Positions 11,467 through 38,296 of a DNA stretch of 38,296 bases are shown here, piece after piece. Source of the DNA: Thermoflexus hugenholtzii JAD2. GTDB taxonomy: Bacteria > Chloroflexota > Dehalococcoidia > UBA2979. How positions within the stretch are numbered: the stretch's first letter is position 1; the number at the start of each line of letters is the position of its first letter. The DNA is taken from NCBI GenBank assembly GCA_945903275.1, contig CAMDNW010000017.1:1-38296 (forward strand), written 5' to 3'. The notes under the pieces are model-generated. The model saw only the letters and a list, made by a program, of their open reading frames with translations. It did not search any database and was not told the DNA's origin. Both the position numbers and the translations under genes were made by a program.

Positions 11467-11499
11467 GTTCCCCAGACGTTAATGCGGCGTTTACCCCCG
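11467..11499 (+). promoter_or_regulatory. Pho box: three 11-bp direct repeats upstream of pstS
   Basis: GTTCCCC, GTTAATG and GTTTACC begin at 11467, 11478 and 11489, exactly 11 bases apart, the spacing of PhoB/PhoP binding units. The third matches the GTTCACC-like unit of Gram-positive PhoP boxes best. An inverted pair TGTACAT (11514-11520) and ATGTACA (11539-11545) follows where the core promoter would be. The array lies about 70-105 bases before the pstS start. I infer that the regulator at 9525 binds here. Confidence 0.65.
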
Positions 11500-11570
11500 G
11501 CCCGGACGATGTCTGTACATGCGAAGTCCATCCGAAGTATGTACATCGTTGGTAGTGGAGGAAGCAGCAT

Positions 11571-12686: not shown

Positions 12687-12706
12687 CGACTGCGGATGCA
12701 TATAAT

Positions 12707-12745
12707 GCGACGTGGGCAGCCGGACTGAACGGCTGCCCACGTCGC
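12707..12745 (+). terminator. 16-bp perfect hairpin between pstS and pstC
   Basis: GCGACGTGGGCAGCCG (12707-12722) pairs perfectly with 12730-12745 across a 7-base loop, followed by a short T-rich TGTTCGTT. It starts 20 bases after the pstS stop and ends 34 bases before pstC. It probably acts as a leaky terminator or mRNA 3' stabiliser, lowering pstCAB expression relative to pstS. Confidence 0.8.
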
Positions 12746-12779
12746 TGTTCGTTCCAATAGCGTGTAGGCAGGGCGCTCG

Positions 12780-14605: not shown

Positions 14606-14607
14606 TA

Positions 14608-15483: not shown

Positions 15484-15507
15484 TGTGGGGCCCGAAGGAG
15501 GCCGCTG

Positions 15508-16173: not shown

Positions 16174-16210
16174 CGGCAGCCTCGATACGCGCGGTTGGCT
16201 TCGGTAGGGC

Positions 16211-16245
16211 TTGACGAAGTGAATACCCCTGATAGCATTGGTATT
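16211..16245 (+). promoter_or_regulatory. Promoter with an inverted-repeat operator before the sulfite reductase gene
   Basis: TTGACG (16211-16216) and TAGCAT (16233-16238) are 16 bases apart and form a fair sigma-70 promoter. An inverted repeat AATACC (16222-16227) and GGTATT (16240-16245), separated by 12 bases, brackets the -10 box. This is a fitting site for a dimeric repressor of sulfur assimilation (for example of the Rrf2/CymR type, an inference). The leader to the ATG at 16335 is about 90 bases. Confidence 0.5.
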
Positions 16246-16334
16246 GCTTCTCGCCTATCTTGACCGTATTACTCGTGAATAAGATTTCGATTAGGAGGCG
16301 AGGCCAAGCCAGCCGATTGCCGTGGAGAGCCGCT

Positions 16335-18125: not shown

Positions 18126-18192
18126 CGGACGCCGGACCACGGGGCACTATGCGAGTGTGCAACGCGCTCTGGCGCGGCAGGGAGTTTTGTTC

Positions 18193-19110: not shown

Positions 19111-20372
19111 TGGAACTGCTCCGGTTCGCCACCGTCGGCTCCGTCGACGATGGCAAAAGCACCCTAATCGGGCGACTGCTCTACGACTCCAAGTCGATCC
19201 TGCAAGACCAGTGGGCCGCGATCGAGGCGACCAGCCAAGCGCGCGGCGACGAGTATGTGAACCTGGCGCTGCTGACCGACGGCCTGCGCGCCGAGCGCGA
19301 GCAGGGCATCACCATCGATGTCGCGTACCGCTACTTCTCGACGCCGAAACGGAAGTTCATCATCGCGGACACGCCGGGGCACGTGCAGTACACACGCAAT
19401 ATGGTGACGGGCGCCTCGACGGCCGACCTGGCGCTGATCCTGATCGACGCGCGACAGGGAGTGCTCGAGCAGTCGCGACGGCACGCCTTCATCTCGTCAC
19501 TGCTCGGCATCCAGCACCTCGTGGTGTGCGTGAACAAGATGGACCTGGTCGAGTACAACGAGGCCGCGTACAAGGCGGTGTGCGAGGAGTTCGCGTGGTT
19601 CCTGAGCCGCCTCGATGTGAACGAGGTCACGTACATCCCGGTTTCGGCGTTGCGCGGCGACAACGTGGTGGAGCCGTCGGATGCGATGCCGTGGTACAGC
19701 GGAAAACCGCTGTTGCAGCACCTCGAAGAAGTCGAGGTCGTGCCGGACGTGATGGGCGCGGACGCGCGCTTCCCGGTGCAGTACGTGATCCGGCCGATGC
19801 GCGAGGAGTTTCACGACTACCGCGGTTACGCGGGGACGGTGGCGGGCGGCGTGCTGCACGTCGGCGATCTGGTGACGGTGCTCCCGAGCGGCCGGCAGAC
19901 GCGCATCCGCAGCATCGACACGCACAGTGGCCCACTGGAGGCAGCCGCACCGCCGATGTCGGTGACGGTGCAGCTCGACGACGACATCGATGTTTCGCGC
20001 GGCAACATGATCGTGGCGGCGGATACACCGCCCGAGATGGCGCAGGATGTCGAGGCGTGGGTGTGCTGGATGTCGGAGCAGGGGCGGCTCACGCCGGGTA
20101 CGCGCTACGCGATCAAGCACACGACGCACAGCACGCGCGCGATCGTGCGTGATATCCACTCACGCCTCGAAATCAATACGCTGGCCGAGAACATCGACGT
20201 GGAGGGCCTGTCGCTGAACGAGATTGGCCGCGTGGTGCTCCGTACGCAGGAGCCACTGGCTTTCGATGCGTACCGGACGAACCACAGTACTGGCTCGTTC
20301 ATCCTGATCGATGCGGTCACGAACGCGACGGTGGCCGCCGGGATGTTGCTCGGGGCCGTCCCAGCTTCCTGA
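19110..20372 (+). CDS. cysN: Sulfate adenylyltransferase large subunit, GTPase
   Basis: A 420-residue EF-Tu-like GTPase subunit of ATP sulfurylase. The G motifs are GSVDDGKST (10-18), DTPGH (87-91), NKMD (142-145) and SAL near 170; the CysN marks LLTDGLRAEREQGITIDVAY and RPMREEFHDYRGYAG are present. There is no fused CysC kinase domain at the end, and no cysC or cysH follows. The GTG start overlaps the cysD stop by one base. A strong hairpin 160 bases downstream ends the operon. Confidence 0.95.
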   Translation: MELLRFATVGSVDDGKSTLIGRLLYDSKSILQDQWAAIEATSQARGDEYVNLALLTDGLRAEREQGITIDVAYRYFSTPKRKFIIADTPGHVQYTRNMVTGASTADLALILIDARQGVLEQSRRHAFISSLLGIQHLVVCVNKMDLVEYNEAAYKAVCEEFAWFLSRLDVNEVTYIPVSALRGDNVVEPSDAMPWYSGKPLLQHLEEVEVVPDVMGADARFPVQYVIRPMREEFHDYRGYAGTVAGGVLHVGDLVTVLPSGRQTRIRSIDTHSGPLEAAAPPMSVTVQLDDDIDVSRGNMIVAADTPPEMAQDVEAWVCWMSEQGRLTPGTRYAIKHTTHSTRAIVRDIHSRLEINTLAENIDVEGLSLNEIGRVVLRTQEPLAFDAYRTNHSTGSFILIDAVTNATVAAGMLLGAVPAS

Positions 20373-25568: not shown

Positions 25569-26633
25569 ATGAAGACCCGCGCCGCCGTACTTGTCGAGCA
25601 TGGCCAGCCGCTGGCGATTGAGGAGATCGAACTCGGGAACCCCGGCCCGTTCGAGGTGCTGGTGAAGCTATACGCCTCGGGGATTTGCCACTCGCAGTTG
25701 CACCAGATCCACAATCCGGCGCAGGCGCGCCCGGCACTCCTCGGGCATGAGGCGACGGGGGTTGTGGTCGCGAAAGGGCGCGATGTCACGCACGTGAAGG
25801 AGGGCAACCGCGTCATGGTGACGTGGGTGCCGCGCGACATCACGCCGGAGACGGCGGTGCTGAATCGGTCATCGTTCTCGTTCCGGGGAGCGACGCACCA
25901 GGCCGCCGGCGCGTACACGTGGGCTGAGCATGTGCTGACGCACGAGCAGTTGGTGTTGCCGCTGGATCCCTCGGTGCCCATCGACGTGACCGCGATCATC
26001 GGGTGCGCGACGGTGACGGGCGTGGGCGCGGTGCTGGGGACGGCGCACGTAAAGCCGGGGCAGACAGTCGCGGTGTTCGGCGTCGGTGGTGTGGGGATCA
26101 ATGTGATCGCGGGCGCGAAGATAGCGCAGGCGGGCCGCATCATCGCGGTCGACCTCGCGGACGACAAACTCGCGTGGGCGAAGGAGTTCGGCGCGACGGA
26201 CGTGGTGAACGGGAAGACCAGCGACCCCGTCGAGGCGATCCGCGCGCTGACCGGCGGCGGCGTGGACTTCGCGTTCGACGCGATCGGCATGGAGTCGGTG
26301 ATCAACCAATGCCTGGAGTCGATCACGCCGGGGATCCTCGGCGCGCGACGAGGCGGCACGGCGGTGGTGGTGGGGATTCCGCAGGGGCCGGTGACGCTGA
26401 AGCCTCGGCTGTTCCCCACAGGCGAGCGGCATCTGATCGGGTCGCTGGGCGGATCGAGCCACCCAATCGAGGACTACCCGCAGTACGTCGAGTGGTACAA
26501 GCAGGGCGCGCTGCCGCTCGACAAGATGGTGACGAAGATCTATGAGGGCCTCGACCACATCAACGAAGGCGTGCGGGCGCTGGAGCAGGGCGAGATCATC
26601 GGCCGTTCGATCATGGTGTACGCACGGCCGTAG
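25569..26633 (+). CDS. Zinc-dependent alcohol dehydrogenase family protein
   Basis: A 354-residue medium-chain dehydrogenase, NAD(P)-dependent. The catalytic zinc site is Cys40 (SGICHSQLH), His60-Glu61 (GHEATG) and Cys146 (IGCATVTGVGA). The Rossmann motif is VFGVGGVGINVI (about 169-180), followed by IIAVDLADDKL, the acidic residue favouring NAD. The structural zinc lobe normally carrying four cysteines is absent: residues 87-110 read VPRDITPETAVLNRSSFSFR without a cysteine. Closest in layout to class III/mycothiol-type formaldehyde dehydrogenases and other MDR alcohol dehydrogenases; substrate not readable. GAGGGAG lies 6 bases before ATG 25569. Confidence 0.88.
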   Translation: MKTRAAVLVEHGQPLAIEEIELGNPGPFEVLVKLYASGICHSQLHQIHNPAQARPALLGHEATGVVVAKGRDVTHVKEGNRVMVTWVPRDITPETAVLNRSSFSFRGATHQAAGAYTWAEHVLTHEQLVLPLDPSVPIDVTAIIGCATVTGVGAVLGTAHVKPGQTVAVFGVGGVGINVIAGAKIAQAGRIIAVDLADDKLAWAKEFGATDVVNGKTSDPVEAIRALTGGGVDFAFDAIGMESVINQCLESITPGILGARRGGTAVVVGIPQGPVTLKPRLFPTGERHLIGSLGGSSHPIEDYPQYVEWYKQGALPLDKMVTKIYEGLDHINEGVRALEQGEIIGRSIMVYARP

Positions 26634-26691
26634 TCTCCGTTGTCCGTGTCGTCCGCCTTGGTCGACCTCACAGCTGATTACTCAAGCACGA

Positions 26692-27207
26692 CTATCCTTC
26701 AGGCAGACTGTCCTGATTACGCGGAGAGCGATCCTCGCTGCCGACGCAGCCGGGAAGGTCCTTTCTGCGACCGCAGTTCCTGGTCAGTCTTTCGATCCGT
26801 CGAAGAGCGATGGCGCACACGATCGCGTAGGGCAAGGCCAGTATGGGGATTCCAAACGAGACTCGGCTATGTTGCGGCCCCAGTGGCTGGACAAGATGCG
26901 CGGTGACCGGGATCCCAAGTACGCGCCACTCCCAAGACCTGCCCTCGGTCACTTCTGTGATCTCGAATGGAAGCCAGATACCCGCCACTGTCAGAACTCG
27001 CCCGTGCAACCCCGAGCGCAGCGGAAGGCCTCGTGGTTGCACGTCCCGAATCGAGGGTCCCCACTGCAGCCAAAGTTCCATGTCGCTGATCACCCGCCAA
27101 CAGGTTTCGGGACAAGCAGCGATTGTTCGAGCGATGTAAAAGCGGCGGAGTGGTTGCCGGACGATCCAGCGAATTCCTCTGCTGATCGCACTTAACCGCA
27201 CAAGCAT
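26692..27207 (-). CDS. SRPBCC-superfamily protein (polyketide cyclase/START-like)
   Basis: A 171-residue protein whose centre follows the SRPBCC helix-grip pattern: ARTIAACPETCWRVISDMEL (first strand and helix), WLQWGPSIRDVQPRG, GRVLTVAGIWLPFEITEV, WEWRVLGIPVTAHLVQP. Such domains bind hydrophobic ligands; the ligand is not known. A C-terminal helix (ALRRIERL) is followed by an unusual basic, low-complexity tail of about 28 residues. ATG 27207 has GGAGGG four bases upstream, better than an in-frame ATG at 27231. It is alone on this strand; about 200 bases to the next gene contain no feature beyond an imperfect hairpin (CTTCAGCT/AGCCGAAG, near 27375-27400). Confidence 0.65.
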   Translation of the reverse strand: MLVRLSAISRGIRWIVRQPLRRFYIARTIAACPETCWRVISDMELWLQWGPSIRDVQPRGLPLRSGLHGRVLTVAGIWLPFEITEVTEGRSWEWRVLGIPVTAHLVQPLGPQHSRVSFGIPILALPYAIVCAIALRRIERLTRNCGRRKDLPGCVGSEDRSPRNQDSLPEG

Positions 27208-27407
27208 TTGCCCTCCGTTCTCAGTTCCCATGCCTCAACGGGACGTACCACGCCGCGCGAGGACACCGCCTCCGGTGCCTGTCCGTCGTTCGGGTAGCGC
27301 TCCCCGGCAACCGAGGTCTACGCAGCACGCCCTAGCCACACACACCCAGCACCCCGGAGCAACAACCGTGACAAGCTTCAGCTCCGCTAAAGCCGAAGAC
27401 TGGTCGC

Positions 27408-27989
27408 CTAGCTGTCATGAGCACGCATTACTTTTTCGAGCGCCTCCAAGATGGCAGCGTTGGTCGGGTGGTCGCCGGCAAAGGCGCTGCGTTGTGCCCA
27501 TACCAACTCTCCACCGGGGCACACGATGAACACCCCGCCAAGTTGTCTCTGGTCGCCGAGCGCATCCATCCGTGCCAACTTTTGGCGATGCCCGTTGATC
27601 AGTGCGCGTAGGCCCGGCACAAATTGCCGAGGGTCGAGGAACGCGAGGAGAGATGGGCGGCGCACTTGCAGCGATCGGTACACCGCACGCTGCGGGTCGG
27701 TCAGCACAGGCGTCGTGATCGCGTAGTCCTCTGCGAAAAAGCCCGCCATCTGCGGCGAGCCGCTGCCCACAATCACGAGCTCAGCGCCTGCGACGTGGAT
27801 GGCCTCGACGATCGCTCGCAGCGTAGAGACCTGCTCCTTGCAGAAAATACAGCCGAAGTGTCGGATGAGCGCCAGCACTACCGGCCGGTCTGCCCACACA
27901 GTCCCAAGCCGAACGGACGACCCGTCCGGACGCAGCACCTCAAGGTTGCCCGCACCCGCTTCGATATTTTCCTGCACCTGAGTTCGCAT
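27408..27989 (-). CDS. Peroxiredoxin-like AhpC/TSA protein (PRXL2/AAED1-like)
   Basis: A 193-residue thioredoxin-fold protein. The active-site strand reads LIRHFGCIFCKEQVSTLR with a CxxC pair (Cys47, Cys50), as in the PRX-like2/AAED1 group that reduces peroxides or resembles bacterial AhpC/TSA antioxidant enzymes. It keeps the later parts VIVGSGSPQMAGFFAEDY, VLTDPQRAVYRSLQVRR and GGVFIVCPGGELVWAQRS. A fine ribosome site (GAGGAGGGG) precedes the ATG. It follows the MerR/B12 regulator by 35 bases on the same strand and is probably in its operon, which suggests a role in defence against light-generated oxidants. Confidence 0.82.
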   Translation of the reverse strand: MRTQVQENIEAGAGNLEVLRPDGSSVRLGTVWADRPVVLALIRHFGCIFCKEQVSTLRAIVEAIHVAGAELVIVGSGSPQMAGFFAEDYAITTPVLTDPQRAVYRSLQVRRPSLLAFLDPRQFVPGLRALINGHRQKLARMDALGDQRQLGGVFIVCPGGELVWAQRSAFAGDHPTNAAILEALEKVMRAHDS

Positions 27990-28024: not shown

Positions 28025-28927
28025 TTACGCGGAGTGCTTCCCGGACAGTTGTGTCGCAACCATGGTCGCCGCCGCGACCACGGACGTCGGCAACCTCACC
28101 GCCGCCAGGACGTCGGCCTCTTCATCGCGCGCTTGGATGATCGCCTGTCCGCCGACGTAGAGGCGCATGCTGCCGCCGACGCCATGTAGAGCTGCGAGCG
28201 CAATTCGAGCTACCGGTAGCGATGCAGCGCTCGTGATCGACAAGCAGAGTGCATCGAATCGGGTGCTGCGAGTCGCCTCTACGAGCGTGGCAGTCGGGAC
28301 GTCCGCGCCGAGGTAGGCGACCCGCAGCCCAGTGCGCCTGAGCAGCAATGCGAGCGCAAGCGCGCCGAGGTCGTGTCGCTCATCCTCAGGGCAGGCGACC
28401 AGCACGTGCGGCGCAGTACGGAGAGGGGCGATGAGCGCGTGAAAGCGTGCCGCGAGCCAGAGACGGGCGGATTCGACGAGCAAATGCTCTGCCGCGACGG
28501 TCATGGCAGATCGTTCCCAGCGCTTCCCCGCCTCGACGAGAGCCGGAAGCACGAGATGCTCGATAGCGGACTCAATGCCCATCGTGCTTTCTGCGACGTT
28601 GAGCGTCTCAAGCACGAGCGATTCGTCATACGTCTGCGCGGCGTCCACTAGGGCCAGCACGCCATCGATAACCACCGGCACAGCGGCAGGCAGGATCGAC
28701 GTGGTCACCGCTTCATCGTGTACGGCAGATGCAGCCGAGGCCGCACTGAGCCCGGAGGCTACGAGAGCCGCCATCCGGCGAATCAGTGCGAGGTCACCCT
28801 CGGTGTACATCCGGCGTCCGGTCGAGCCGCGCCCCGGCGCGGGTACTCCATAGCGACGCTCCCACGTCCGCAGGCGATGAGTCGAGACACCAGTGGCAAG
28901 CGCGGCCGCGGCAACTGTGTATATCAC
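28025..28927 (-). CDS. MerR-family regulator with cobalamin-binding domain (CarH/LitR-like photoreceptor)
   Basis: A 300-residue repressor. Residues 3-59 form the MerR winged helix (LATGVSTHRLRTWERRYGVP, GRRMYTEGDLALIRRM). A four-helix cap follows with Trp137 and Glu147-His148, the W-x9-EH motif that contacts 5'-deoxyadenosylcobalamin in CarH. The Rossmann cobalamin part carries ERHDLG (183-188; His185 the lower-ligand type ExHxxG), LSITS and YVGGQAI. In CarH/LitR proteins the dark tetramer represses carotenoid and light-stress genes and light breaks the cobalt-carbon bond. The start is placed at GTG 28927, where a strong promoter predicts a leaderless mRNA; an in-frame ATG at 28984 lies upstream of the -35 box. 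It shares an operon with the peroxiredoxin-like gene. Confidence 0.88.
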   Translation of the reverse strand: MIYTVAAAALATGVSTHRLRTWERRYGVPAPGRGSTGRRMYTEGDLALIRRMAALVASGLSAASAASAVHDEAVTTSILPAAVPVVIDGVLALVDAAQTYDESLVLETLNVAESTMGIESAIEHLVLPALVEAGKRWERSAMTVAAEHLLVESARLWLAARFHALIAPLRTAPHVLVACPEDERHDLGALALALLLRRTGLRVAYLGADVPTATLVEATRSTRFDALCLSITSAASLPVARIALAALHGVGGSMRLYVGGQAIIQARDEEADVLAAVRLPTSVVAAATMVATQLSGKHSA

Positions 28928-28933
28928 GTTGGA

Positions 28934-28962
28934 ATCATACAAATTAGTCACTTCTTCGTCAA
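28934..28962 (-). promoter_or_regulatory. Sigma-70 promoter of the MerR/B12 gene, predicting a leaderless transcript
   Basis: On the minus strand TTGACG (28957-28962) and TATGAT (28934-28939) are separated by exactly 17 bases. The normal distance puts +1 at about 28927, the first base of the GTG that opens the MerR homology. No ribosome-binding sequence would then be present. Confidence 0.7.
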
Positions 28963-28972
28963 TATATTTGAC
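28958..28972. promoter_or_regulatory. Inverted repeat joining two divergent -35 elements
   Basis: GTCAA-TATAT-TTGAC is a perfect 5+5+5 palindrome. One arm is the -35 of the minus-strand regulator promoter; the other gives TTGACA (28968-28973) for the plus-strand gene run, although its -10 at 17 bases (GAAAAT) is poor. It could be the site through which the MerR/B12 protein represses both directions (inference). Confidence 0.5.
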
Positions 28973-29073
28973 ACTCATCGTCATTACGACGAAAATGAAG
29001 CAGTAGAACGAACAAGTTCTGACGAAGTTGACCAGAAGGGTAACGCTCGGTCAGCAGATAAGAGGGGTACGCC

Positions 29074-30000
29074 ATGTTGGTCGCAATCACCGGTTCGAAC
29101 GGACTCATTGGGACCGCGCTGCGGCGCTCGCTCGAACAGGACGGGCACACGGTGCGGGCACTGCGCCGCGGGACTGCACTCGAGGGCGGCGATTACGACG
29201 TCAACACTCGTTGGTTTGCCAGCGATGCGCTGGCCGGGGCCGACGCGGTGGTGCACCTCGCAGGTGCCTCCATCGGCACCGCACGCTGGACCGCTCAGCG
29301 TCGTTCTGAACTGCGCAGTAGTCGCATCGACTCAACTCAGCTGCTCGTGGATGCGATCGGCGCGCTGGATCGCAAGCCGCGTGTGCTCGTCGTTGCCTCT
29401 GGGATTGGCTACTACGGCGATGCGGGAAACAGCGTGGTGGACGAATCCACCGCAATGGGGAAGGGGTTCCTTGCTGAGCTCGTGCGCGAGTGGGAAGAAG
29501 CGGCGCGGCGCGCGGAGGCGCTGGGCGTGCGCGTGGTTTCCCCGCGCTTTGGCATCGTACTGGCGAAGGATGGAGGTGCCCTCCCGCAGATGGTACTGCC
29601 GTTCAAGCTCGGTTTCGGCGGGCCCATTGGCAGCGGGCGGCAGTGGATGTCGTGGGTTTCGCTCGCGGACGTCGTCGGGGCGTTGAAACTCCTGCTCCAG
29701 GACGAACGCGCGAGTGGCCCCGTGAACGTCGTCGCGCCCGAGGCCACCACCAACAGCGGGTTCGCGCGCGCGCTCGGGAACGTGCTACACCGTCCCGCGT
29801 TCGCACCGGCTCCGGCGTTTGCCCTACGCCTAGTGCTTGGCTCGGGGCGGGCTGATGAACTGCTGCTCGCGAGCCAGCATGTCGTCCCAAAGCGGCTGAG
29901 CGAACTGGGGTACGTGTTCCGGCACACCGACCTGCGCCAAGCGCTGACCGCTGCACTGCACTCTGAAGAAGCCTCGCCTCCGCTGGCATCGGCCGACTAA
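29074..30000 (+). CDS. TIGR01777 family NAD-dependent oxidoreductase (YfcH-like)
   Basis: A 308-residue extended-SDR-like protein: ITGSNGLIGTALRRSLEQ nucleotide site, VVHLAGASIGTARWT, VVASGIGYYGDAGNSVVDES and SPRFGIVLAKDGGALPQMVL, all standard in the TIGR01777/YfcH group. The C-terminal DUF1731-like segment ends LSELGYVFRHTDLRQALTAA. No enzymatic reaction is established for the family. It is the first gene of the run divergent from the MerR/B12 regulator. Its TAA overlaps the ATG of the next gene by one base. Confidence 0.9.
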   Translation: MLVAITGSNGLIGTALRRSLEQDGHTVRALRRGTALEGGDYDVNTRWFASDALAGADAVVHLAGASIGTARWTAQRRSELRSSRIDSTQLLVDAIGALDRKPRVLVVASGIGYYGDAGNSVVDESTAMGKGFLAELVREWEEAARRAEALGVRVVSPRFGIVLAKDGGALPQMVLPFKLGFGGPIGSGRQWMSWVSLADVVGALKLLLQDERASGPVNVVAPEATTNSGFARALGNVLHRPAFAPAPAFALRLVLGSGRADELLLASQHVVPKRLSELGYVFRHTDLRQALTAALHSEEASPPLASAD

Positions 30001-30476
30001 TGAGCATCCACCGATTCGAGACGACCCATCTACTTCCTATCCCGCGCGACGAGGCTTGGCGATTCTTCTCCAATCCCCGCAACCTGGCCCGGATCACGCC
30101 ACCCGAGATGGGCTTCACGATCACCTCGGAGGTAACAGACGAGGTCTACCCCGGAATGATGCTCACGTACCGCATCCGCCCGCTCTTCAACATCCCGGTC
30201 ACGTGGGTGACTGAAATCAAGCACGTGACGCCCGGCGAGCGGTTCGTCGATGAACAGCGCGCCGGGCCGTACGCGATGTGGCACCACGAGCACCACTTCG
30301 GCGACATCGAGGGAGGCACAGAGATGCGGGACATCGTGCATTATGCCGTGCCCGGCGGCCCACTTGGCGATATCATCAATCGCTGCCTTGTGCAGCGGAA
30401 AGTGGCAGAGATCTTTGCGCACCGGAGCCGTGTACTTGACGGCATGTTCGGTGCAATCGCGCACGATCCGAACTGA
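30000..30476 (+). CDS. SRPBCC family ligand-binding protein
   Basis: A 158-residue SRPBCC protein, coupled to the TIGR01777 gene by TAATG. Pattern: HRFETTHLLPIPRDEAWRFF, NPRNLARITPPEMGFTITSE, MMLTYRIRPLFNIPVTWVTE, then PYAMWHHEHHFGDIEGGTEM and VHYAVPGGPLGDIINRCLVQ. In many bacteria this SRPBCC type accompanies or is fused to the TIGR01777 domain. It probably binds a hydrophobic small molecule; no catalytic residues are assigned. Confidence 0.85.
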   Translation: MSIHRFETTHLLPIPRDEAWRFFSNPRNLARITPPEMGFTITSEVTDEVYPGMMLTYRIRPLFNIPVTWVTEIKHVTPGERFVDEQRAGPYAMWHHEHHFGDIEGGTEMRDIVHYAVPGGPLGDIINRCLVQRKVAEIFAHRSRVLDGMFGAIAHDPN

Positions 30477-30540
30477 TCGGTGACAGCGTAGCCATGTGCA
30501 GTAAGCATGCGAGCGGCTATGACGGATAGGAGGCTAGGAA

Positions 30541-30945
30541 ATGGGTCAGACGACGACGGCAGTGGTGGCGACGCTGCTCAGCATGGGAGTGCTGGATGCT
30601 ATCTGGCTGTCCACGATGACCTCGCGACTGTATCGCAGAGAGATGCCTTCGCTGCTCCTTGAGACGCCGAGCTGGCCTCCTGCCGTTGCGTTCTATCTTC
30701 TTTACGCTGTGGGTGTCGTGCTGTTGGTCGTGCGTCCGGCGCTTGATGGCGACTGGACGGCCGGTCGAGTGGCGGGCATGAGCGCGCTCCTCGGGCTTGT
30801 GGCCTACGGCACCTATGACCTGACTAATCAGGCGACGCTGCGTGGGTGGTCAACGCTCGTCACCATGGTAGACCTCACGTGGGGAGCCACGCTCACCGCA
30901 GTGGTCGCTACGGTAGCAGTCGCGGCCGCTCGCCGTTTCGGGTAG
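30541..30945 (+). CDS. DUF2177 family membrane protein
   Basis: A 134-residue integral membrane protein with four spans (about 5-27, 46-66, 74-93, 107-130). The family mark AYGTYDLTNQATLRGWSTLV and VDLTWGATLTAVVATVAVA are present, as is the early LDAIWLSTMTSRLYRREM. DUF2177 genes often occur in light- or stress-inducible clusters with the neighbours found here; function unknown. Excellent ribosome site (AGGAGG). Confidence 0.85.
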   Translation: MGQTTTAVVATLLSMGVLDAIWLSTMTSRLYRREMPSLLLETPSWPPAVAFYLLYAVGVVLLVVRPALDGDWTAGRVAGMSALLGLVAYGTYDLTNQATLRGWSTLVTMVDLTWGATLTAVVATVAVAAARRFG

Positions 30946-31007
30946 CGAGCCCGATGCGGGTCACGTAAATACCGGCGCAATCTGCCGGATCAAGGGGGAG
31001 CGTGGCG

Positions 31008-32006
31008 ATGTCCGCATTGGCTACGAGCGTCGACCACGCGCTGGAATGGCCCGTCGTGACCTCATTCACACGCATTGGCTGCGCGGTACGGCGGCGCGTC
31101 GCGCGCTGGAAACCGCTGGAGGCATACGACCTGAGCGGACGCGTGGCACTCGTCACCGGGGCTACTTCCGGAATCGGCTTTGCCGCGGCCGAGGCGCTGC
31201 TGCGGATGGGGGCCCATGTGATCGTCCTTGGCCGTGACGCAACGCGTACTGAAAGTGCTCAGCGCCAGCTGGCGAGTCGCACCGGAAGCGAGCGCGTCTC
31301 CATGGTGCTGGCGTCGATGGACGACGCAGATGAGGTGCGTCGGGCGGCGGATGAGGTGATGGCGCAGCATGCGAGACTCGACATTCTGGTGCACAACGCC
31401 GGAGCGCTCGCTACGGGCTATCAGCCCTCTCCGATGGGTGTCGAGGTGACGTCAGCCGCCCAACTCGCAGGGCCGTTTCTACTGACCGGACTGCTGATGG
31501 AACGTCTCGCGGCAGCCGCGCCTGGTCGCGTCATCAGCGTTTCGTCCGGCGGTGCGTACCTCGTGCCACTGACGGTCTCTGGGCTCGAGCCCGCCCCCGC
31601 TGAGTTCGACGGCAGCAGGCAGTACGCCCGCGCCAAACGCGCGCAGATCACCCTCACCGAACTTTGGGCCGAGCACACACGCGGGCGCTCGCTCGTGTTT
31701 CAGACGATGCACCCGGGCTGGGTGGATACGCCAGGGCTCGCGGCATCACTGCCTCGCTTTCACGGCATGCTGCGCCCGCTGCTGCGGTCTCCGGAGGAGG
31801 GCGCGGACACGATCGCGTGGCTGGCTGCTGAGTCGGAAGCAACACAGACGAACGGAGCCTTTTGGTGCGACCGCGTGCCACGACCGGCGCATCGCCTCGC
31901 ACGGACACGCGCCATGGACACCTCAGAGCGGCGTGCACGGCTGTGGGCGTGGTGTGAGACGACCAGCGGTTGGCGGCTGCCACCAGCACGTGTGGCGGGA
32001 GGCTGA
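31008..32006 (+). CDS. SDR family oxidoreductase, DHRS12-like
   Basis: A 332-residue short-chain dehydrogenase. The cofactor site is TGATSGIG (50-57), HNAG is at 129-132, ISVSSGGAY supplies the catalytic Ser, and YARAK (Tyr206, Lys210) is the active pair. A long N-terminal stretch (about 40 residues) and a basic C-terminus with FWCDRVPRPAHRLARTRAM match the DHRS12-like group. ATG 31008 is chosen because AAGGGGGAG lies 7 bases before it and only 1 base before the GTG at 31002. It precedes the FAD gene by two bases, so they are one operon. Substrate is probably a lipid or terpenoid; not shown. Confidence 0.85.
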   Translation: MSALATSVDHALEWPVVTSFTRIGCAVRRRVARWKPLEAYDLSGRVALVTGATSGIGFAAAEALLRMGAHVIVLGRDATRTESAQRQLASRTGSERVSMVLASMDDADEVRRAADEVMAQHARLDILVHNAGALATGYQPSPMGVEVTSAAQLAGPFLLTGLLMERLAAAAPGRVISVSSGGAYLVPLTVSGLEPAPAEFDGSRQYARAKRAQITLTELWAEHTRGRSLVFQTMHPGWVDTPGLAASLPRFHGMLRPLLRSPEEGADTIAWLAAESEATQTNGAFWCDRVPRPAHRLARTRAMDTSERRARLWAWCETTSGWRLPPARVAGG

Positions 32007-32008
32007 CC

Positions 32009-33268
32009 ATGCACATCGCGATCATCGGCGGCGGTGTCAGCGGGTTGATCACGGCTTACCTCGCTCAGCGCAGTCATCGAGTGGAGCTGTTCGAGGCGCG
32101 CGAGACCGCCGGTGGCCACGCAAACACCGTGGCCGCGCGTGACGACACCGGTGAGGAAGTGCCCCTAGACGTCGGGTTCGTCGTCTACAACGAGCGCACC
32201 TACCCGGTGTTCAGCCGGCTCCTGCGCGAGCTTGGTGTTGAGACTCTGCCGTCCGACATGTCGTTCGGCTTCAGCTCTGAAGAGGATGGGTTTGAGTACA
32301 GTAGCCGAGGGTGGCGGGGGTACCTCGGTAGCCCACGCAACCTGTTCAGTATCCGCCGGGCGATCATGGGCCTCGATGTGCTCCGCTTCCAGCGGGACGC
32401 GCGCAGAGTGCTCCGGCATGACCTGCTGCACGATGTCCCGTTTCAGGATTACCTGCATAGAGGACGGTATGGCAGCGACTTCCGGCAGCGTGTGATCATC
32501 CCGCTCATCGCCTCCACGTGGTCTAACTCCCCGGCGGACGTGCTGGCCTTCCCCACGAATTACCTGTTTCGATTCCTGGAGCAGCACGGCGTGCTGGCGT
32601 TGGGCAGCATCCCCGAGTGGCGGAGTATCGTTGGCGGTGCACGCACCTACATCGACGCGATCCTTCGTACTCTCACTCCCGGAAGCGTCCACTGCGGCAC
32701 CCCAATCATCGGAGTGACCCGACAGTTGGGTGGGGCGTGTCTCGCGTTTCCGGATGGCGAGGAGCGTCATTTCGACGCTGTGGTCCTCGCGTGCCACGCC
32801 GATCAGGCGCTCGCTCTGTTGGGTGATGCATCCCCCGAAGAACGCGAGGCGCTCGGCGGGTTCGCGTACACGCGCAACCATGTGGTCCTGCATACCGACA
32901 AGCGCGTGCTGCCGCGAAGCCAGTGGGCGCGAGCGGCATGGAACTTCCATCGTATCGAACAGAAAGGATCGCCAACCACGCTGACGATGAGCTACGACCT
33001 GAACCGACTGCAGGGCATCCCCGGACCCGAGACCTACTGTGTCTCGGTGAACCCAGGCGACAACGTCGATCAGTCGCGCATCATCGCCGAGTTTGACTAC
33101 TCTCACCCGGTCTACTCGATACGTACCATTGATAGTCAGAGACGATTGCAAACGCTGCAGGGTGTGCGTCAGACATACTTTGCCGGCGCACATCTCGGTT
33201 ACGGCTTTCATGAGGATGGCGCCCGCTCCGGGGTCGAGGTCGCGGAACGGCTCGGTGTTTCTTGGTGA
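32009..33268 (+). CDS. FAD/NAD(P)-dependent amine-oxidase-fold oxidoreductase
   Basis: A 419-residue flavoprotein. It opens with MHIAIIGGGVSGLITAYLAQ and FEARETAGGHANTV, the FAD site. DVGFVVYNERTYPVFSRLL and AWNFHRIE are typical of the group next to DUF1365. The C-terminal TYFAGAHLGYGFHEDGARSG, the second FAD-binding part, is intact. In several bacteria this gene, DUF1365 and a cyclopropane-synthase-like methyltransferase are adjacent and are linked to unusual membrane fatty acids under light or singlet-oxygen control. The methyltransferase is not here. ATG 32009 has CGGGAGG 6 bases upstream, and the GTG of DUF1365 overlaps the stop. Confidence 0.85.
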   Translation: MHIAIIGGGVSGLITAYLAQRSHRVELFEARETAGGHANTVAARDDTGEEVPLDVGFVVYNERTYPVFSRLLRELGVETLPSDMSFGFSSEEDGFEYSSRGWRGYLGSPRNLFSIRRAIMGLDVLRFQRDARRVLRHDLLHDVPFQDYLHRGRYGSDFRQRVIIPLIASTWSNSPADVLAFPTNYLFRFLEQHGVLALGSIPEWRSIVGGARTYIDAILRTLTPGSVHCGTPIIGVTRQLGGACLAFPDGEERHFDAVVLACHADQALALLGDASPEEREALGGFAYTRNHVVLHTDKRVLPRSQWARAAWNFHRIEQKGSPTTLTMSYDLNRLQGIPGPETYCVSVNPGDNVDQSRIIAEFDYSHPVYSIRTIDSQRRLQTLQGVRQTYFAGAHLGYGFHEDGARSGVEVAERLGVSW

Positions 33269-34080
33269 CCGGCACGTCTGCGGCACTGCGCTCGCATTTG
33301 CTTGCGGGGACGATTCGGCATCGTCGCTCGCGTGTCACGACGTATGACTTCACGCACCATGTCTGGTATCTCGCACTCGATCTCGATGAGCTAGACGCAG
33401 TGGACCGCTGTTTCTGCCTGCTGTCGGTCAACCGCCGCAATCTGCTTACGTTAAACGATAGTGACCACCTCGAGCGCGGCCACGAGGGCCTGCGCGAGGC
33501 GATCGCACGCCGGCTACGGGTTCACAATCTTGACCCGAATCAGACGCGCGTCACGCTGATCGCGTACCCGCGCGTGCTTGGCTACGTATTCAACCCGGTG
33601 TCGTTCTACCTCTGCCGCGATCGTGACGACATGCTGTGCCTTGTGCTCGCCGAGGTGCACAACACCCATGGGGATCGTGAGATCTACGACTTCACACCTG
33701 TCGGTGAGAGTGGTCCGGTGTTCAAAGGCATCGCGGACAAGCGGATGTATGTCTCACCGTTCATTGCTCCCGTGGCACGTTATGAGTTGCTCGCATGGGA
33801 GGCCGGCGACCGACTGACGATCACGATCCGTGAGCTCGAGGGGGATAGCTCTACACTGTTCGCACGGCTACAGGTGCGGCGAATGCCGCTGACAGGCCGA
33901 CAACTGCTGAGCTTGCTTGCTCGAGACCCGCTCGTCCCTCTGAAGACATCGGCGCTAATCTTCTGGCACGCGCTCCGCCTCTGGTGGCGCGGCGTGCCGT
34001 GGCAGCGTTACCAGAGGGCGCGCAAGCTTGAAGTTGAGAATGTAGTCGATCGAGGCCACTCGCCATCTGTAGGCAAGTGA
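33265..34080 (+). CDS. DUF1365 family protein
   Basis: A 271-residue protein recognised by HLLAGTIRHRRSRVTTYDFT, LIAYPRVLGYVFNPVSFYLC and VLAEVHNTHGDREIYDFT. The family has no proven reaction but is almost always beside the FAD oxidoreductase, as here, where the GTG start overlaps the preceding TGA by four bases. It is the last gene of the run and is followed by a hairpin and an IS remnant. Confidence 0.9.
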   Translation: MTGTSAALRSHLLAGTIRHRRSRVTTYDFTHHVWYLALDLDELDAVDRCFCLLSVNRRNLLTLNDSDHLERGHEGLREAIARRLRVHNLDPNQTRVTLIAYPRVLGYVFNPVSFYLCRDRDDMLCLVLAEVHNTHGDREIYDFTPVGESGPVFKGIADKRMYVSPFIAPVARYELLAWEAGDRLTITIRELEGDSSTLFARLQVRRMPLTGRQLLSLLARDPLVPLKTSALIFWHALRLWWRGVPWQRYQRARKLEVENVVDRGHSPSVGK

Positions 34081-34097
34081 ACCGCCCCGGGTTTGCT

Positions 34098-34127
34098 GGA
34101 GGCTCTCGCTATTGCGTTCCAGCCTCC
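34098..34127 (+). terminator. Inverted repeat after the DUF1365 gene
   Basis: GGAGGCT (34098-34104) and AGCCTCC (34121-34127) can pair across a 16-base loop, starting 17 bases after the DUF1365 stop. No T-run follows. A plausible end of the light-cluster transcript, or the edge of the IS remnant. Confidence 0.4.
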
Positions 34128-34128
34128 G

Positions 34129-34260
34129 CTAAGATCTGCTCAGGGTAATCGCGGTCTCGAACTCTGCTGGCGGGAAGCAGCCGCTGGCGCCGAAGAAGCG
34201 GCAGTGAATGTACCAATCGACCCACATCAGGATGGCGAGTGCGATATTTTTCAGGCTAGG
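34129..34260 (-). mobile_element. IS3-family transposase C-terminal remnant
   Basis: A minus-strand frame contains MWVDWYIHCRFFGASGCFPP followed by AEFE. This matches the end of IS3-type integrase domains (WVDWYNHRRLxGxLGYxPPAEFE). The catalytic DDE core is absent and several invariant positions are altered (NHRR to IHCR), so it is a decayed fragment. No inverted-repeat ends were found. The rest of the 425-base gap up to 34505 has no gene; another minus-strand frame at 34381-34506 (ESWLLQAAYRGIDSML, then NYDEHRAYAVKRVHRL and TAG) looks protein-like but is unidentified and runs into the MFS start. Confidence 0.6.
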
Positions 34261-34505
34261 GGACTGTAGCCAAGCGATGAGTGCCACCGGATCTGGATGT
34301 ACTTTTTGCACCATGCCTCGGTCAAGACCTGCGCTTCTAGTAGCGAGTCTAACCTCTTGATGGTCGTTGCCTGCTCGGTGCTACAGACGGTGCACGCGTT
34401 TCACTGCGTATGCACGGTGCTCGTCGTAATTTGGCAGCATGCTGTCGATGCCGCGGTACGCTGCCTGCAGCAACCAACTCTCCAGTTCTGTCGTGAAGGA
34501 GATGT

Positions 34506-35813
34506 ATGAGCACCGAGTCGCCGGCCCGTTCTGGGCCAGCCTCCGACAGCCGAAAACGAGACGGCATCTTCTATGGCTACTGGATCGTGGCGGCTGGCTT
34601 CGTGCTTTCGGCCGTCAACGCCGGCCTCTATTTCTATGGCTTTGGAGCGTTCTTCAAGACTATCACCGAGGAACTTGGCACGAGCCGTGCCGTGCTCTCA
34701 GGGGCGTTCTCGCTAGCACGGCTCGAAGGTGGCCTCATCGGGCCGGCCGAAGGTTGGGCCGTCGACCGCTTCGGCCCGCGGAAAGTGCTCTACGTCGGTA
34801 TCCCGCTGATGGCAGCCGGCTTTGTGCTCATGAGCCAGGTGACGTCCGTGCTGATGTTCTACGTGGTCTTCATCTTCTGTCTTTCCCTCGGCAGCGCCCT
34901 TGCCTCGGTCGCCCCCTGCTCGGCGGCGGTGGCGAACTGGTTCGATCGCAAGCGCAGCCGGATGCTGGGCGTGATGCTCGCAGGCGTCGGTTTGGGCAGC
35001 GCGGTGGTGCCAGGCGTCACATTACTCATTACCTATACCGGCTGGCGCAACGCTCTGGTGATTCTCGGCCTCGTCACCATCGTGGTCGGATTACCGTTGG
35101 CCGCGGTGATGCGGCACAAGCCGGAGCCGTACGGCTACTACCCCGACAACGAGGCACCAGCAGGTGATGGCGTCGAGCGAGGCGCGGAGGGCGCCCTCGT
35201 GCCTATTCAAGATGACGGACTTACGGCGCGGGAAGCGCTACGTACCTCTGCCTTTTGGTTCATGGCTTCTGCTTTCGCGGTGCGGGTCGGTGTGACCGGG
35301 TCGGTTGCCCTACATTTCATCCCATTCCTCAGCGACATGGGCATCGGTCTGAACGTCGCCGGCCTCATGGTCACGATGCTGGGTATCATCGGCATCATCG
35401 GCCGCCTCGGTTTTGGCTGGCTGGGCGACATCTTCCCGAAGCGCTATGTCGTGGCCGGCGGACTCTGCTCGCTAACTATGGGCATGCTCGCGCTGGCCTT
35501 CGCCACCTCGCTCTGGCATGTGGTGCTTGCGCTGCTGCTGTACGCGCCGGCCTACGGCGGACTAGCGACGATGATGTTCGCCATGCGCGGCGAGTACTTC
35601 GGAAGGAAATCCTTTGCGACGATCCAAGGGTTCATGGGTTCGGTGCTCGTGTTAGGGACCGTGAGCGGGCCTATCTACGCTGGCTGGATCTTCGACGTCA
35701 CAAAAAGTTACCGTCTCGCCTTCATCACCTTCGCTATCGCGTCTGCCCTGTCGATCCTGCTCATCCTCGCAGCCCGCAAGCCTGTGCGTGCAATCTCTGT
35801 GGCCGCGGCCTGA
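34506..35813 (+). CDS. MFS transporter (oxalate/formate antiporter- or MCT-like)
   Basis: A 435-residue 12-helix transporter of the major facilitator superfamily. The first helix starts at YGYWIVAAGFVLSAVNAGLY. The cytoplasmic loop 2-3 motif is GWAVDRFGPRKVLYVG, and a repeat of it (GWLGDIFPKRYVVAGG) lies between helices 8 and 9. A hydrophilic central loop (about 195-240) divides the halves. The layout resembles monocarboxylate/oxalate-formate antiporters; the substrate is unknown. AAGGAG precedes ATG 34506. Heliorhodopsin starts 81 bases downstream and may share the transcript. Confidence 0.88.
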   Translation: MSTESPARSGPASDSRKRDGIFYGYWIVAAGFVLSAVNAGLYFYGFGAFFKTITEELGTSRAVLSGAFSLARLEGGLIGPAEGWAVDRFGPRKVLYVGIPLMAAGFVLMSQVTSVLMFYVVFIFCLSLGSALASVAPCSAAVANWFDRKRSRMLGVMLAGVGLGSAVVPGVTLLITYTGWRNALVILGLVTIVVGLPLAAVMRHKPEPYGYYPDNEAPAGDGVERGAEGALVPIQDDGLTAREALRTSAFWFMASAFAVRVGVTGSVALHFIPFLSDMGIGLNVAGLMVTMLGIIGIIGRLGFGWLGDIFPKRYVVAGGLCSLTMGMLALAFATSLWHVVLALLLYAPAYGGLATMMFAMRGEYFGRKSFATIQGFMGSVLVLGTVSGPIYAGWIFDVTKSYRLAFITFAIASALSILLILAARKPVRAISVAAA

Positions 35814-35894
35814 GCTCGCACTGCACGACCGTGATGCCAAGCGGAGGGCACAAGAGTATGAGGAGCGTATGATGGCGCAATGGGAGGTCGCCTC

Positions 35895-36659
35895 ATGACG
35901 AACGACGAGACTTCGCAACGGTTTCGGAGACTCTGGCAGTACAACCTAGCGATGGCTCTGCTCCACGGCGTGCAGGGCTCTGCCCTCCTCATTCTCAGCA
36001 ATGACTTCACGCTTCCCGTCACCGCGACCTTTATGGAAGGCCCGCCTGGTAGCGGTGTGCCGGACCCAACGACGCTGTTCGGTCTTCCGATCGGGCTTAC
36101 GGTCGCCGCGTTCGTCCTGATTTCCGCCGCCGCTCACGCGATCCTCGTGCTGCCCGGCGTGTTCGGTTGGTACCGGCGCAATCTCGAGCGAGGCCGAAAC
36201 GATGCGCGCTGGATCGAATACTCGATCAGTTCCTCGATCATGATCGTGCTGATTGCCATGCTCACGGGTATCAGTGACGTCGCGGCCGTAATCGCGCTCT
36301 TTGGCGTCAATGCATCAATGATCTTTTTCGGGTTGGTGCAAGAACATTCAGGTCGTCCAGGCGAGAGTAGCCTACTGCCGTTCTGGCTCGGCGCGATCGC
36401 TGGTGCCTTCCCGTGGATCGCGATCGCCGTCTACATCTGGAGCCCAGGGACAGCCGCCGATCCACCCGGCTTCGTGTACGGGATCTTCGTTTCGCTTTTT
36501 GTCTTCTTCAACGTGTTCACGCTGAACATGTGGCTCCAATACCGGCGGATTGGCGCATGGCGCAACTACTTGTTTGGTGAGTCGGTGTACGTATTGCTCA
36601 GTCTCACCGCCAAGTCTGCCCTAGCCTGGCAAGTATTCTTCCCGACGCTTTTGGGTTAG
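35895..36659 (+). CDS. Heliorhodopsin
   Basis: A 254-residue seven-helix retinal protein. The retinal Schiff-base lysine is Lys240 in SLTAKSALAWQ on the seventh helix; the counterion is Glu108 in RWIEYSISSSIM on the third. Other residues known from heliorhodopsin 48C12 are at matching places: His24 and Gln27 in ALLHGVQG, His81 in SAAAHAI, and Ser236. The text also fits (IALFGVNASMIFFG, NVFTLNMWLQYRRIGAW). Heliorhodopsins sit inverted in the membrane and act as slow light sensors, not pumps. ATG 35895 has GGGAGG 7 bases before it; a longer start at 35880 contains that ribosome site. A TATGAT at 35868-35873 may be a -10 box. No carotenoid cleavage gene is nearby. Confidence 0.95.
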   Translation: MTNDETSQRFRRLWQYNLAMALLHGVQGSALLILSNDFTLPVTATFMEGPPGSGVPDPTTLFGLPIGLTVAAFVLISAAAHAILVLPGVFGWYRRNLERGRNDARWIEYSISSSIMIVLIAMLTGISDVAAVIALFGVNASMIFFGLVQEHSGRPGESSLLPFWLGAIAGAFPWIAIAVYIWSPGTAADPPGFVYGIFVSLFVFFNVFTLNMWLQYRRIGAWRNYLFGESVYVLLSLTAKSALAWQVFFPTLLG

Positions 36660-36758: not shown

Positions 36759-36829
36759 GCATCGGGATCCTCTCCAAACACCAGGCGACGTGCAGGATAT
36801 CCCGATGCCCGCTGGCCTATCGTCCTGCA
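36759..36829. terminator. Two overlapping hairpins between converging heliorhodopsin and ABC permease genes
   Basis: GCATCGGGAT (36759-36768) pairs perfectly with ATCCCGATGC (36799-36808) across 30 bases, and TGCAGGA (36791-36797) pairs with TCCTGCA (36823-36829). The second lies inside the first loop and beyond it, so the two are partly exclusive. They sit in the 157-base gap and over the permease stop. The first could terminate both transcripts; competing folds could also be incidental. Confidence 0.4.
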
Positions 36830-37560
36830 TCTGGCGGAGTACCACCGCGGCCCCCGGCATTCGTGACGGTGGCCGCGGTGCGGCGCTCGGGGCCGGCCTC
36901 CAGGCGTTGCGCGATGAGCGAGAGCCCGTATGACGGTATGAAGTACATGGCCGCCACAATCGTCAATACCTCGACGGGATTGCCGTACGTGGGGGTGTCA
37001 TAGATCACCCGCGCGCTCCGAGACAGTTCGAGGATGCTCAGCACGCTCGCGAGCGATGTGTCCTTGAACAGCGTGATCAACTGGCTGACGACACCCGGCG
37101 CCATCCGCCGCACCGCGATCGGGAGCGCGACATATCGCATCGATTGCAGATAGCTCAACCCCAGCGCGCGCGCGGCTTCCATGATTCCAGATGCGATCGA
37201 GAGGATGCCAGCTCGCACGATCTCGGCGACTACCGCGCTGTTGTACAACGTGAGTGCGATCACTACCGACGTGACTGGGCCGATTTTGAGCGGCGTCCGG
37301 GCCGAGCCGAAGAAGACAAAGAAGATCAGGAGGAGCAGTGGCATAGCGCGGAACGTCTCGATGTATGCGGTGGCAAGCCAGCGGATGACGCGCGGGCGAG
37401 CGAGTCGGCCGACTGCCATCGTTATGCCGACAAGCAAGCTGAGCAGCATGCTGATGACGGCCATCCGGACTGCGAGCGCGAAGCCATCGAGCAGGAAGCC
37501 CCAGATCGCCCAGCGCGTGAACGGTTCCCAGCCAGCGCCGACTGTCAGCACGTCGTTCAT
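36817..37560 (-). CDS. Polar amino acid ABC transporter permease (second subunit)
   Basis: A 247-residue permease of the His/Glu/Gln/Arg/opine family. Membrane text begins with FLLDGFALAVRMAVISMLLS. The EAA docking loop is GIMEAARALGLSYLQSMRYV, and FKDTSLASVLSILELSRSA is typical. ATG 37560 overlaps the stop of the upstream permease (ATGA), so the two subunits are coupled; a longer in-frame start at 37602 lies inside the previous gene. The Gly/Pro-rich C-terminal tail is longer than usual. The ATPase and binding protein are outside the window. Confidence 0.9.
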   Translation of the reverse strand: MNDVLTVGAGWEPFTRWAIWGFLLDGFALAVRMAVISMLLSLLVGITMAVGRLARPRVIRWLATAYIETFRAMPLLLLIFFVFFGSARTPLKIGPVTSVVIALTLYNSAVVAEIVRAGILSIASGIMEAARALGLSYLQSMRYVALPIAVRRMAPGVVSQLITLFKDTSLASVLSILELSRSARVIYDTPTYGNPVEVLTIVAAMYFIPSYGLSLIAQRLEAGPERRTAATVTNAGGRGGTPPDAGR

Positions 37561-38270
37561 CGCACGCGTGCCATTCTGCGCTCCAGCCGGCTCGATGCCC
37601 ACGCAAGTGGGAGTGTCAACGACAGGTACAGCAGCCCGGCCACACCGAACAGCTCGAAGGTCTGGAAGTTTGACTGTTGGATACGGTCGGCCGCCGCCAG
37701 CAAGTCGATTACACCAATGACTGACACTAGGGCGCTGTTGCGGAAGAGCGCGCTGAGGATGCTTGTTAGCAGCGGCACGGCGATGCGGAATGCCTGCGGG
37801 ACGACCACGTGCAGCCGTGTCTGCATATACGTGAGGCCCAATGCGCGTGCCGCCTCAGTCTGGCCGTAGTCCACCGAACGCAGGGCACTGCGCAGTGCTT
37901 CCGTCGTATACGCGCCGGTGTACAGCGTGAGCCCCAGTACCGCAGCTTGCACCGGCGACAGTAGCCAGTCGATGGTTCCGAGGTACGGGAGGTGCGTGTC
38001 GAGCGAAGGCAACTTCGGCAACGCGAAGAACCAGAAATAGAGCTGCACGAGGAGCGGCGTATTCCGGAACACCTCCACGTACGCGCCACACGCGAGGCGC
38101 CCTAACCGCCAGTCCGACGTGCGTACGAGTGACAGGATCACGCCCAACACGAGCGCAAGCGCCATCGACGTCACAGTGAGGGCGATGGTGACTTGGTACC
38201 CGCGAAGCAGTGCCGGATAGTGCAGCCATAGTTGTTCGGCAACGGCGCCGAAAAAAGCGATCAGCCCCAT
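37557..38270 (-). CDS. Polar amino acid ABC transporter permease (first subunit)
   Basis: A permease of about 237 residues, partner of the previous one. Helices start at LLRGYQVTIALTVTSMALAL, the conserved FRNTPLLVQLYFWFF is present and the EAA loop is QTEAARALGLTYMQTRLHVV. ATG 38270 is chosen by family length, but the frame stays open to the window edge and GTG 38282 is a further option. Neither has a clear ribosome site. The substrate in the family includes glutamate, glutamine, arginine and histidine; not readable here. Confidence 0.88.
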   Translation of the reverse strand: MGLIAFFGAVAEQLWLHYPALLRGYQVTIALTVTSMALALVLGVILSLVRTSDWRLGRLACGAYVEVFRNTPLLVQLYFWFFALPKLPSLDTHLPYLGTIDWLLSPVQAAVLGLTLYTGAYTTEALRSALRSVDYGQTEAARALGLTYMQTRLHVVVPQAFRIAVPLLTSILSALFRNSALVSVIGVIDLLAAADRIQQSNFQTFELFGVAGLLYLSLTLPLAWASSRLERRMARVR

Positions 38271-38296
38271 AACGTCTCGCACACACCCATGAGGTG

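Follow-up and report, generated by a model that had tools for sequence, protein, structure and literature searches.

The 38,296-nucleotide contig analysed here (the window), from Thermoflexus hugenholtzii JAD2 (assembly GCA_945903275.1, contig CAMDNW010000017.1), contains a gene coding for a CarH/LitR-type regulator of the MerR family that carries cobalamin (vitamin B12)-binding domains and, 6.9 kb away (28984 to 35880-35895), a gene coding for a heliorhodopsin (HeR), a membrane retinal protein. An initial annotation had proposed that a B12 photoreceptor and a heliorhodopsin are encoded within 9 kb, and both genes are confirmed by profiles and key residues. In the reading that we prefer, to which we give a probability of about two in three, the window holds two adjoining units and HeR genes are recurrent members of CarH-type light-defence regulons, in which the B12 receptor would set the amount of HeR. 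In several relatives carH and the HeR gene are operon partners or share a promoter, suggesting that one light sensor often controls the production of the other. HeR seems to have been recruited repeatedly into CarH-type light regulons: in Chloroflexota and some Actinomycetota its genes have several times become neighbours, operon partners or promoter-sharers of cobalamin-photoreceptor regulators.

The two photoreceptor genes and their promoters

The genome to which the window belongs (G000; the window is its contig C17) has 1.75 Mb in 29 contigs and is 97% complete. Genes were found by a codon-position score and then six-frame scans (at this G+C content, carH and numerous HeR genes escaped a greedy selection of the longest open reading frame, ORF), and the window ORFs were annotated with Pfam, NCBIfam and the PDB. 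The regulator contains MerR_1, B12-binding_2 and B12-binding domains (Pfam) and aligns over its full length to the Thermus CarH structure 5c8d (E=1.1e-26), keeping GxxW, W-x9-EH, the lower-ligand His and GxxxP. The equivalents of W131, E141, H142 and H177 of Thermus CarH (TtCarH) are present in the alignment, within motifs that read W-ERSAMTVAA-EH and ERHDLG (E/DxHxxG, with the lower-ligand His). From the SignatureFinder set (GxxW, EH, GxxH and GxxxP; PMC11796333) three elements are found, and GxxH reads DExH with the ligand His retained. Translation probably starts at the GTG at 28927 (protein beginning VIYTVAAAALATGV), the transcript starting at or just before it, because the longer ORF would begin with codons that overlap the carH promoter; an ATG occupies the matching place, with the same layout, in relatives G013, G024, G028 and G010.

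A gap of 35 bp separates carH from a downstream SelL-related redox gene, which is on its strand and is probably part of the carH operon. The initial annotation had counted a peroxide-defence gene among those framed by the two photoreceptor genes; this one lies outside that frame. A SelL/AhpC-TSA_2-type gene, with 44% identity to the window copy, is also found divergent from, and touching, a HeR gene in another genome (L116:10340-10891 in G004; also L004).

Two divergent promoters between carH and the six genes on the opposite strand are the only sigma-70-like promoters in 27.9-36.9 kb, and the interval 28930-29070, previously suggested as a promoter region, stands as a candidate that holds both. 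Shuffled sequence contains two such promoters on average as well, so the support for this pair is its position and its conservation, the divergent layout being kept in G024, G028, G013 and G010. Judged by their sequences, the six genes at 29074-34080 constitute a known type of LitR/CarH photo-oxidative-stress operon, from which photolyase and a ufaM/CFA-type methyltransferase are absent. In the dark, CarH loaded with adenosylcobalamin (AdoCbl) would sit on an operator that overlaps the -35 boxes of the divergent promoters (28934-28996), repressing both the carH-redox unit and the TIGR01777/SRPBCC/DUF2177/SDR (short-chain dehydrogenase)/FAD (flavin adenine dinucleotide)/DUF1365 operon; light would cleave AdoCbl and release CarH, and both would be induced. 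A CobA-type cobalamin adenosyltransferase, which would make AdoCbl, is present in G000, and a PduO-type enzyme was not found there.

The second unit is a pair formed by a major facilitator superfamily (MFS) transporter gene and the HeR gene, adjoining the first. The HeR has the counterion E108 and the Schiff-base retinal lysine K240 in transmembrane helix 7 (numbered from 35895; aligned to 48C12 HeR), being by profile and key residues a typical heliorhodopsin, and its start is probably the ATG at 35895, because GGGAGG lies upstream. The MFS gene ends 67-82 bp before it and is its probable operon partner. Effects of published HeRs on the products of neighbouring genes are known, for example on glutamine synthetase (PMC9529153), on photolyase (PMC9769723) and on an ABC (ATP-binding cassette) transporter (PMC11109279); the MFS or redox proteins are therefore candidates, and candidates only, for proteins that the window HeR may affect. 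At 36817-38294 (minus strand), two ABC permease genes of the binding-protein-dependent kind (amino-acid type by eye) are convergent with the HeR gene.

Recurrence of the pair and shared promoters in relatives

Of 393 genomes of the class searched for HeR genes, 76 were positive, and of 400 of the phylum, 56; a similarity search with the window HeR across genome contigs gave 67 loci, including all the Actinomycetota loci of the sample; the nearest HeR-bearing relatives in this search are metagenome genomes of Dehalococcoidia/Chloroflexota. The neighbourhoods of 174 HeR loci were inspected, 162 of them with a distinct HeR sequence of usable length. Cobalamin-photoreceptor regulators were found within 12 kb of 13 HeR loci from 12 genomes (Chloroflexota, Thermomicrobiales and Acidimicrobiia), at 12 of them as a CarH-type regulator within about 8 kb, with G028 at 11.6 kb. 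The survey of HeR neighbourhoods for MerR-B12 genes that had been suggested thus shows that the pairing recurs, with shared promoters in relatives, contrary to the lack of recurrence that had been named as a refutation. Some six-frame matches to W-x9-EH (e.g., L285, L006 and L136) were dropped as antisense or low-complexity chance matches.

MerR-B12 CarH genes occur in 33 genomes of the class, and HeR in 16 of these against 60 of the 360 others (Fisher p=7e-5); carH and HeR lie at most 12 kb apart in 7 of the 16 genomes having both, where about 1% each would be expected (p=2e-10), both figures ignoring kinship and having been calculated after the fact. Considering all HeR neighbourhoods, 12 regulators were seen against about 0.2 expected by chance, a figure that uses a rough upper estimate of cobalamin-regulator density; like the two above, this comparison ignores kinship and was made after the fact. 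On a FastTree phylogeny of HeR, the B12-neighbour label requires 9 changes, at least 7 of them forced by well-supported branches (some may be losses), so that a single inherited pairing does not explain the recurrence.

The regulators beside HeR carry at least three types of DNA-binding domain. That of L155 has its CarH-type cobalamin domain fused to a Cro/C1-type helix-turn-helix (HTH; HTH_3, Pfam), a B12 photoreceptor architecture other than MerR, and its homologues in L156 (like L155, in G212) and L167 (G265) share the W-x9-EH motif. In L019 and L014 the regulator, whose cobalamin domain is joined to an excisionase-like HTH, comes directly after HeR. Besides HeR, the G212 regulators have photolyase, folE, fasciclin and NmrA-type genes nearby; photolyase is close to HeR in L169 (G013), L171 (G028) and L155, and a CMAS-type methyltransferase in L014.

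In the family of the window, a motif (TTGACGAAGAnnnGAC) takes in the -35 box and some of the spacer. In genome-wide scans, its exact copies number one in G000, at carH, two in G013, at carH and at HeR, and one in G028, at HeR; the seven other family genomes searched have none. On a matrix derived from five carH promoters alone, those of G013 and G028 among them, the HeR promoter of G013 scores 37.4 bits (its own carH, 38.0) and that of G028, 33.3, the next-best sites reaching 18.2 bits in G013 and 11.3 in G028. Within the carH/HeR gap of G304, three 11-bp direct-repeat units (TTGTCAAGGTT/TTGCCAAAAGT/CCGTCCAGAGT) lie over the carH -35 box, with a counterpart in G327, and for HeR there is a TTGACA on the opposite strand; as read from these sequences, both genes share one operator-bearing divergent promoter in the two genomes. 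Upstream of the G203 carH-HeR operon there are TGTACAGAGAC/TGTACAGAGTC repeats (TGTACAGAG, 11 bp apart). The general 11-bp repeat test is clear in G203 and G304 and weaker in G327. The f33 carH motif (CTTGTCAAGnTTTTGCC) was not found at other f33 HeR loci. The scheme proposed for the window predicts light induction of HeR too in G013, G028, G304, G327 and G203. A wider proposal, which we judge slightly better than an even bet, is that HeR is a direct target of cobalamin-photoreceptor repressors in several independent lineages, forming a two-tier system in which green/blue light, acting via CarH-type sensors with at least three types of DNA-binding domain, would lead to production of the retinal receptor and its redox and repair partners.

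Other arrangements were seen around HeR genes. A DICT-domain sensor gene (predicted light response) is divergent from HeR in G013 (L169:8186-9289) and G028 (L171:8044-9162). In G008 (L103:9473-11856) and G022 (L115:1485-3849), of the window's family, a TIGR01777-SRPBCC pair is divergent from HeR with no carH beside it, genes typical of CarH regulons again adjoining HeR. In L106-L108, L110, L111 and L160 HeR is preceded on its own strand, at 21-58 bp, by a DUF2177 gene, the two probably forming a DUF2177-HeR operon in several genomes of the class. In the window, the genes to the left of the locus (25569-27231, an alcohol dehydrogenase-like gene and an SRPBCC protein at 26692-27231) and those at 10223-20369 (histidine kinase, periplasmic binding protein and ABC permease, nitrite/sulfite reductase) belong to ordinary metabolism and lie outside the finding.

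Table 1. Window features, and cobalamin-binding regulators near HeR genes elsewhere
Location	Feature	Position	Strand	Basis or arrangement
Window	SelL-related/AhpC-TSA_2 redox protein	27408-27989	-	PF13911 E=2.3e-14; NF040769 124.6 bits, cut-off 120
Window	CarH/LitR-type MerR-B12 photoreceptor regulator (CarH-like)	28025-28984	-	Pfam, PDB alignment; ORF opens 28984, probable start GTG 28927
Window	carH promoter TTGACG-17-TATGAT (candidate)	28934-28962	-	Contains motif TTGACGAAGAAGTGAC at 28947-28962; conserved in relatives
Window	Divergent operon promoter TTGACA-17-GAAAAT (candidate)	28968-28996	+	Same element before divergent gene in G024, G028 (by eye)
Window	TIGR01777 NAD-dependent epimerase	29074-30000	+	318.5 bits, cut-off 207
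Window	SRPBCC-like small protein	30000-30476	+	Own sequence and homologues near other HeR genes; itself without Pfam match
Window	DUF2177 membrane protein	30541-30945	+	Pfam E=1.5e-37
Window	SDR	31002-32006	+	Pfam E=4.3e-26
Window	FAD-dependent amine-oxidase-like oxidoreductase	32012-33268	+	Pfam, NCBIfam
Window	DUF1365 protein, final gene of CarH-type operon	33262-34080	+	Pfam E=1.9e-62
Window	Degraded IS3-family transposase remnant	34129-34314	-	tblastn E=2e-4, 46.7% to IS3 family transposases; no Pfam match
Window	MFS transporter (oxalate/formate-antiporter/monocarboxylate type)	34506-35813	+	Pfam, NCBIfam
Window	HeR	35895-36659	+	ORF opens 35880; PF18761 E=9.1e-99; NF038020 313.9 bits, cut-off 100
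G203	carH and HeR			carH overlaps HeR, same strand, as one operon
G304, G327	carH and HeR			Divergent, 105 and 137 bp apart
G013 (window's family)	carH and HeR			Order HeR - MpaB-like - carH - photolyase, same strand
G028 (window's family)	carH and HeR			11.6 kb apart; photolyase, DUF1365, FAD and SDR genes between
G280	carH and HeR			HeR near carH; carH truncated by contig end
G533/L276	CarH-type cobalamin regulator			Near HeR
L019 (Acidimicrobiia)	Regulator, excisionase-like HTH (HTH_17, Pfam)	10838-11704		HeR then regulator, same strand
L014 (Thermomicrobiales)	Regulator, excisionase-like HTH (by alignment)	1192-2097		HeR then regulator, same strand
G212	B12-domain regulators	L155:2113-3024; L156:2563-3492		Two HeR loci
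G265	B12-domain regulator	L167:11179-12068		Near HeR

Alternative explanations

Several observations weigh against the preferred reading, above all for the window itself. The IS3 remnant lies inside the 425-bp gap between the DUF1365 and MFS genes and parts the CarH operon from the MFS-HeR pair, so that the two photoreceptor genes do not frame a single set, as had been supposed. No CarH-type site precedes the MFS or the HeR gene of the window (best scores of 1.7 and 4.2 bits versus 35.8 at carH, on a matrix built without window sequence), and nothing CarH-like was found at 35800-35894, formerly suggested as a CarH-related promoter. Because of the lack of a site and the intervening remnant, shared regulation is unsupported in this genome, as is direct CarH control of its HeR, and the combined cobalamin and retinal locus of the initial annotation survives as a recurring genomic association. 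The 11-bp periodicity of the window-family operator is not significant, none of the closest relatives of the window HeR (L002, L003, L004, L105 and L109) has a B12 regulator within 10 kb, such a regulator is missing from most HeR loci, and the motif and the counts were found post hoc. Phytoene synthase was not found in G000, so that the HeR would need imported retinal; a search of this genome for Blh gave no match, although control genomes gave none either. The regulator scores 121.2 bits on the NCBIfam CarH equivalog, far under the cut-off of 400, and is because of this score taken as CarH-like and outside that narrow family; it is also distant from Thermus CarH. An ordinary CarH locus could have been joined to an unrelated MFS-HeR pair by an IS-mediated rearrangement, any coupling being confined to other genomes; this explanation, possible but doubtful in our view, agrees with the IS3 remnant at the junction, the MFS and HeR genes devoid of a CarH site and a HeR clade that is not B12-linked elsewhere, although the pairing is far above chance and includes G013 and G028, of the same family, with shared promoters.

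CarH is unlikely to control the window HeR directly as well, whether through an operator that escaped detection or by transcription running on from the DUF1365 end into MFS-HeR: HeR stands directly under CarH promoters in other genomes, the MFS-HeR pair is on the strand of the operon and there is no strong terminator in the gap (terminator-like sites are no commoner than in shuffles), but the 425 bp with a transposase remnant and the absence of the motif at MFS or HeR speak against it. It is more improbable still that the shared motif, instead of being an operator, reflects conservation of an N-terminal peptide (IDEE...) or recombination that duplicated an ordinary promoter. The motif can be read as the codons 'YIDEEVT', 'LDEDST' and 'HIDEEST' in window carH and G013, but every copy coincides with a -35 box and spacer, 16-17 nt from a TAnnnT box, and the G028 carH keeps the promoter pattern and loses the peptide reading; moreover, the motif before the G028 HeR lies about 110 bp ahead of the start ATG in a frame that soon stops, which argues that DNA rather than peptide is conserved there. 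A MerR-B12 protein that senses B12 or AdoCbl levels and not light would explain why GxxH reads DExH (D for G) and why Glu follows the Trp where TtCarH has His (PMC11796333, PMC8156234), but it seems very unlikely, with the W131, E141, H142 and H177 equivalents and GxxxP retained and with putative targets that belong to the light-stress genes of those LitR systems that have been characterised (PMC9758184). The preferred reading, two window units and recurrent membership of HeR in CarH-type regulons, is kept against these alternatives.

Comparison with known systems

The function of HeR is still debated. If the proposed coupling is true, a cobalamin switch over HeR would place it in the photo-oxidative stress response, its role would become testable by dark/light expression and footprinting, and CarH regulons would take in a further photoreceptor in addition to carotenoids and repair. 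Beside HeR, the same B12 sensor is found joined to DNA-binding domains that are unrelated to one another. Of the ten HeR neighbour groups that have been published, one is 'MerR family regulator' (PMC11109279), the neighbours listed include MerR, DUF2177, SDR, photolyase and ABC transporter (PMC11109279; PMC8612252), and a link of HeR to oxidative stress has been proposed (PMC8612252). In the accessible text of both papers, the MerR neighbours are not identified as cobalamin photoreceptors and no shared promoters are reported, and no published link between HeR and a cobalamin photoreceptor was found in the accessible literature outside subscription journals.

In the known CarH system, the AdoCbl-bound tetramer covers the promoter in the dark; on illumination the Co-C bond is cleaved and the tetramer falls apart, which leaves the promoter free. 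The operator there has three or four direct repeats of 11 bp, placed across the promoter (PMC8156234). The window regulator resembles the class I CarH/LitR proteins of Thermus, Bacillus megaterium and Myxococcus (PMC8156234) in its MerR HTH, four-helix and Rossmann B12 domains, W-x9-EH, lower-ligand His, putative operator region overlapping the -35 box and divergent target operon. Unlike those systems, its operator has no clear 11-bp repeats, and no carotenoid genes were found near the locus, nor phytoene synthase in the genome. The LitR of Pseudomonas governs light-inducible operons with phrB, SDR, FAD oxidoreductase, ufaM and folE (PMC9758184); likewise, the window has SDR, FAD oxidoreductase and unknown-function genes beside the regulator, with photolyase, folE and a CMAS-type methyltransferase as additions in relatives, whereas the window operon has neither photolyase nor the fatty-acid methyltransferase and an extra redox gene stands behind carH. 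In Pseudomonas mendocina, a class II LitR is paired with a short LOV protein (PMC9758184), likewise a pairing of a LitR-family repressor with a second photoreceptor gene; there, LOV acts by protein contact on a LitR whose B12 site is incomplete, whereas in the present case a membrane retinal protein is the second receptor and the connection would be made at the promoter. The combined locus, which the initial annotation had called unusual, is thus not wholly unprecedented, given MerR among HeR neighbours (PMC11109279) and the LitR-LOV pair (PMC9758184). The MerR neighbours, the oxidative-stress link and the LitR-LOV pair had already been published, and what is new here is the proposed inclusion of a heliorhodopsin in CarH-type light regulons.

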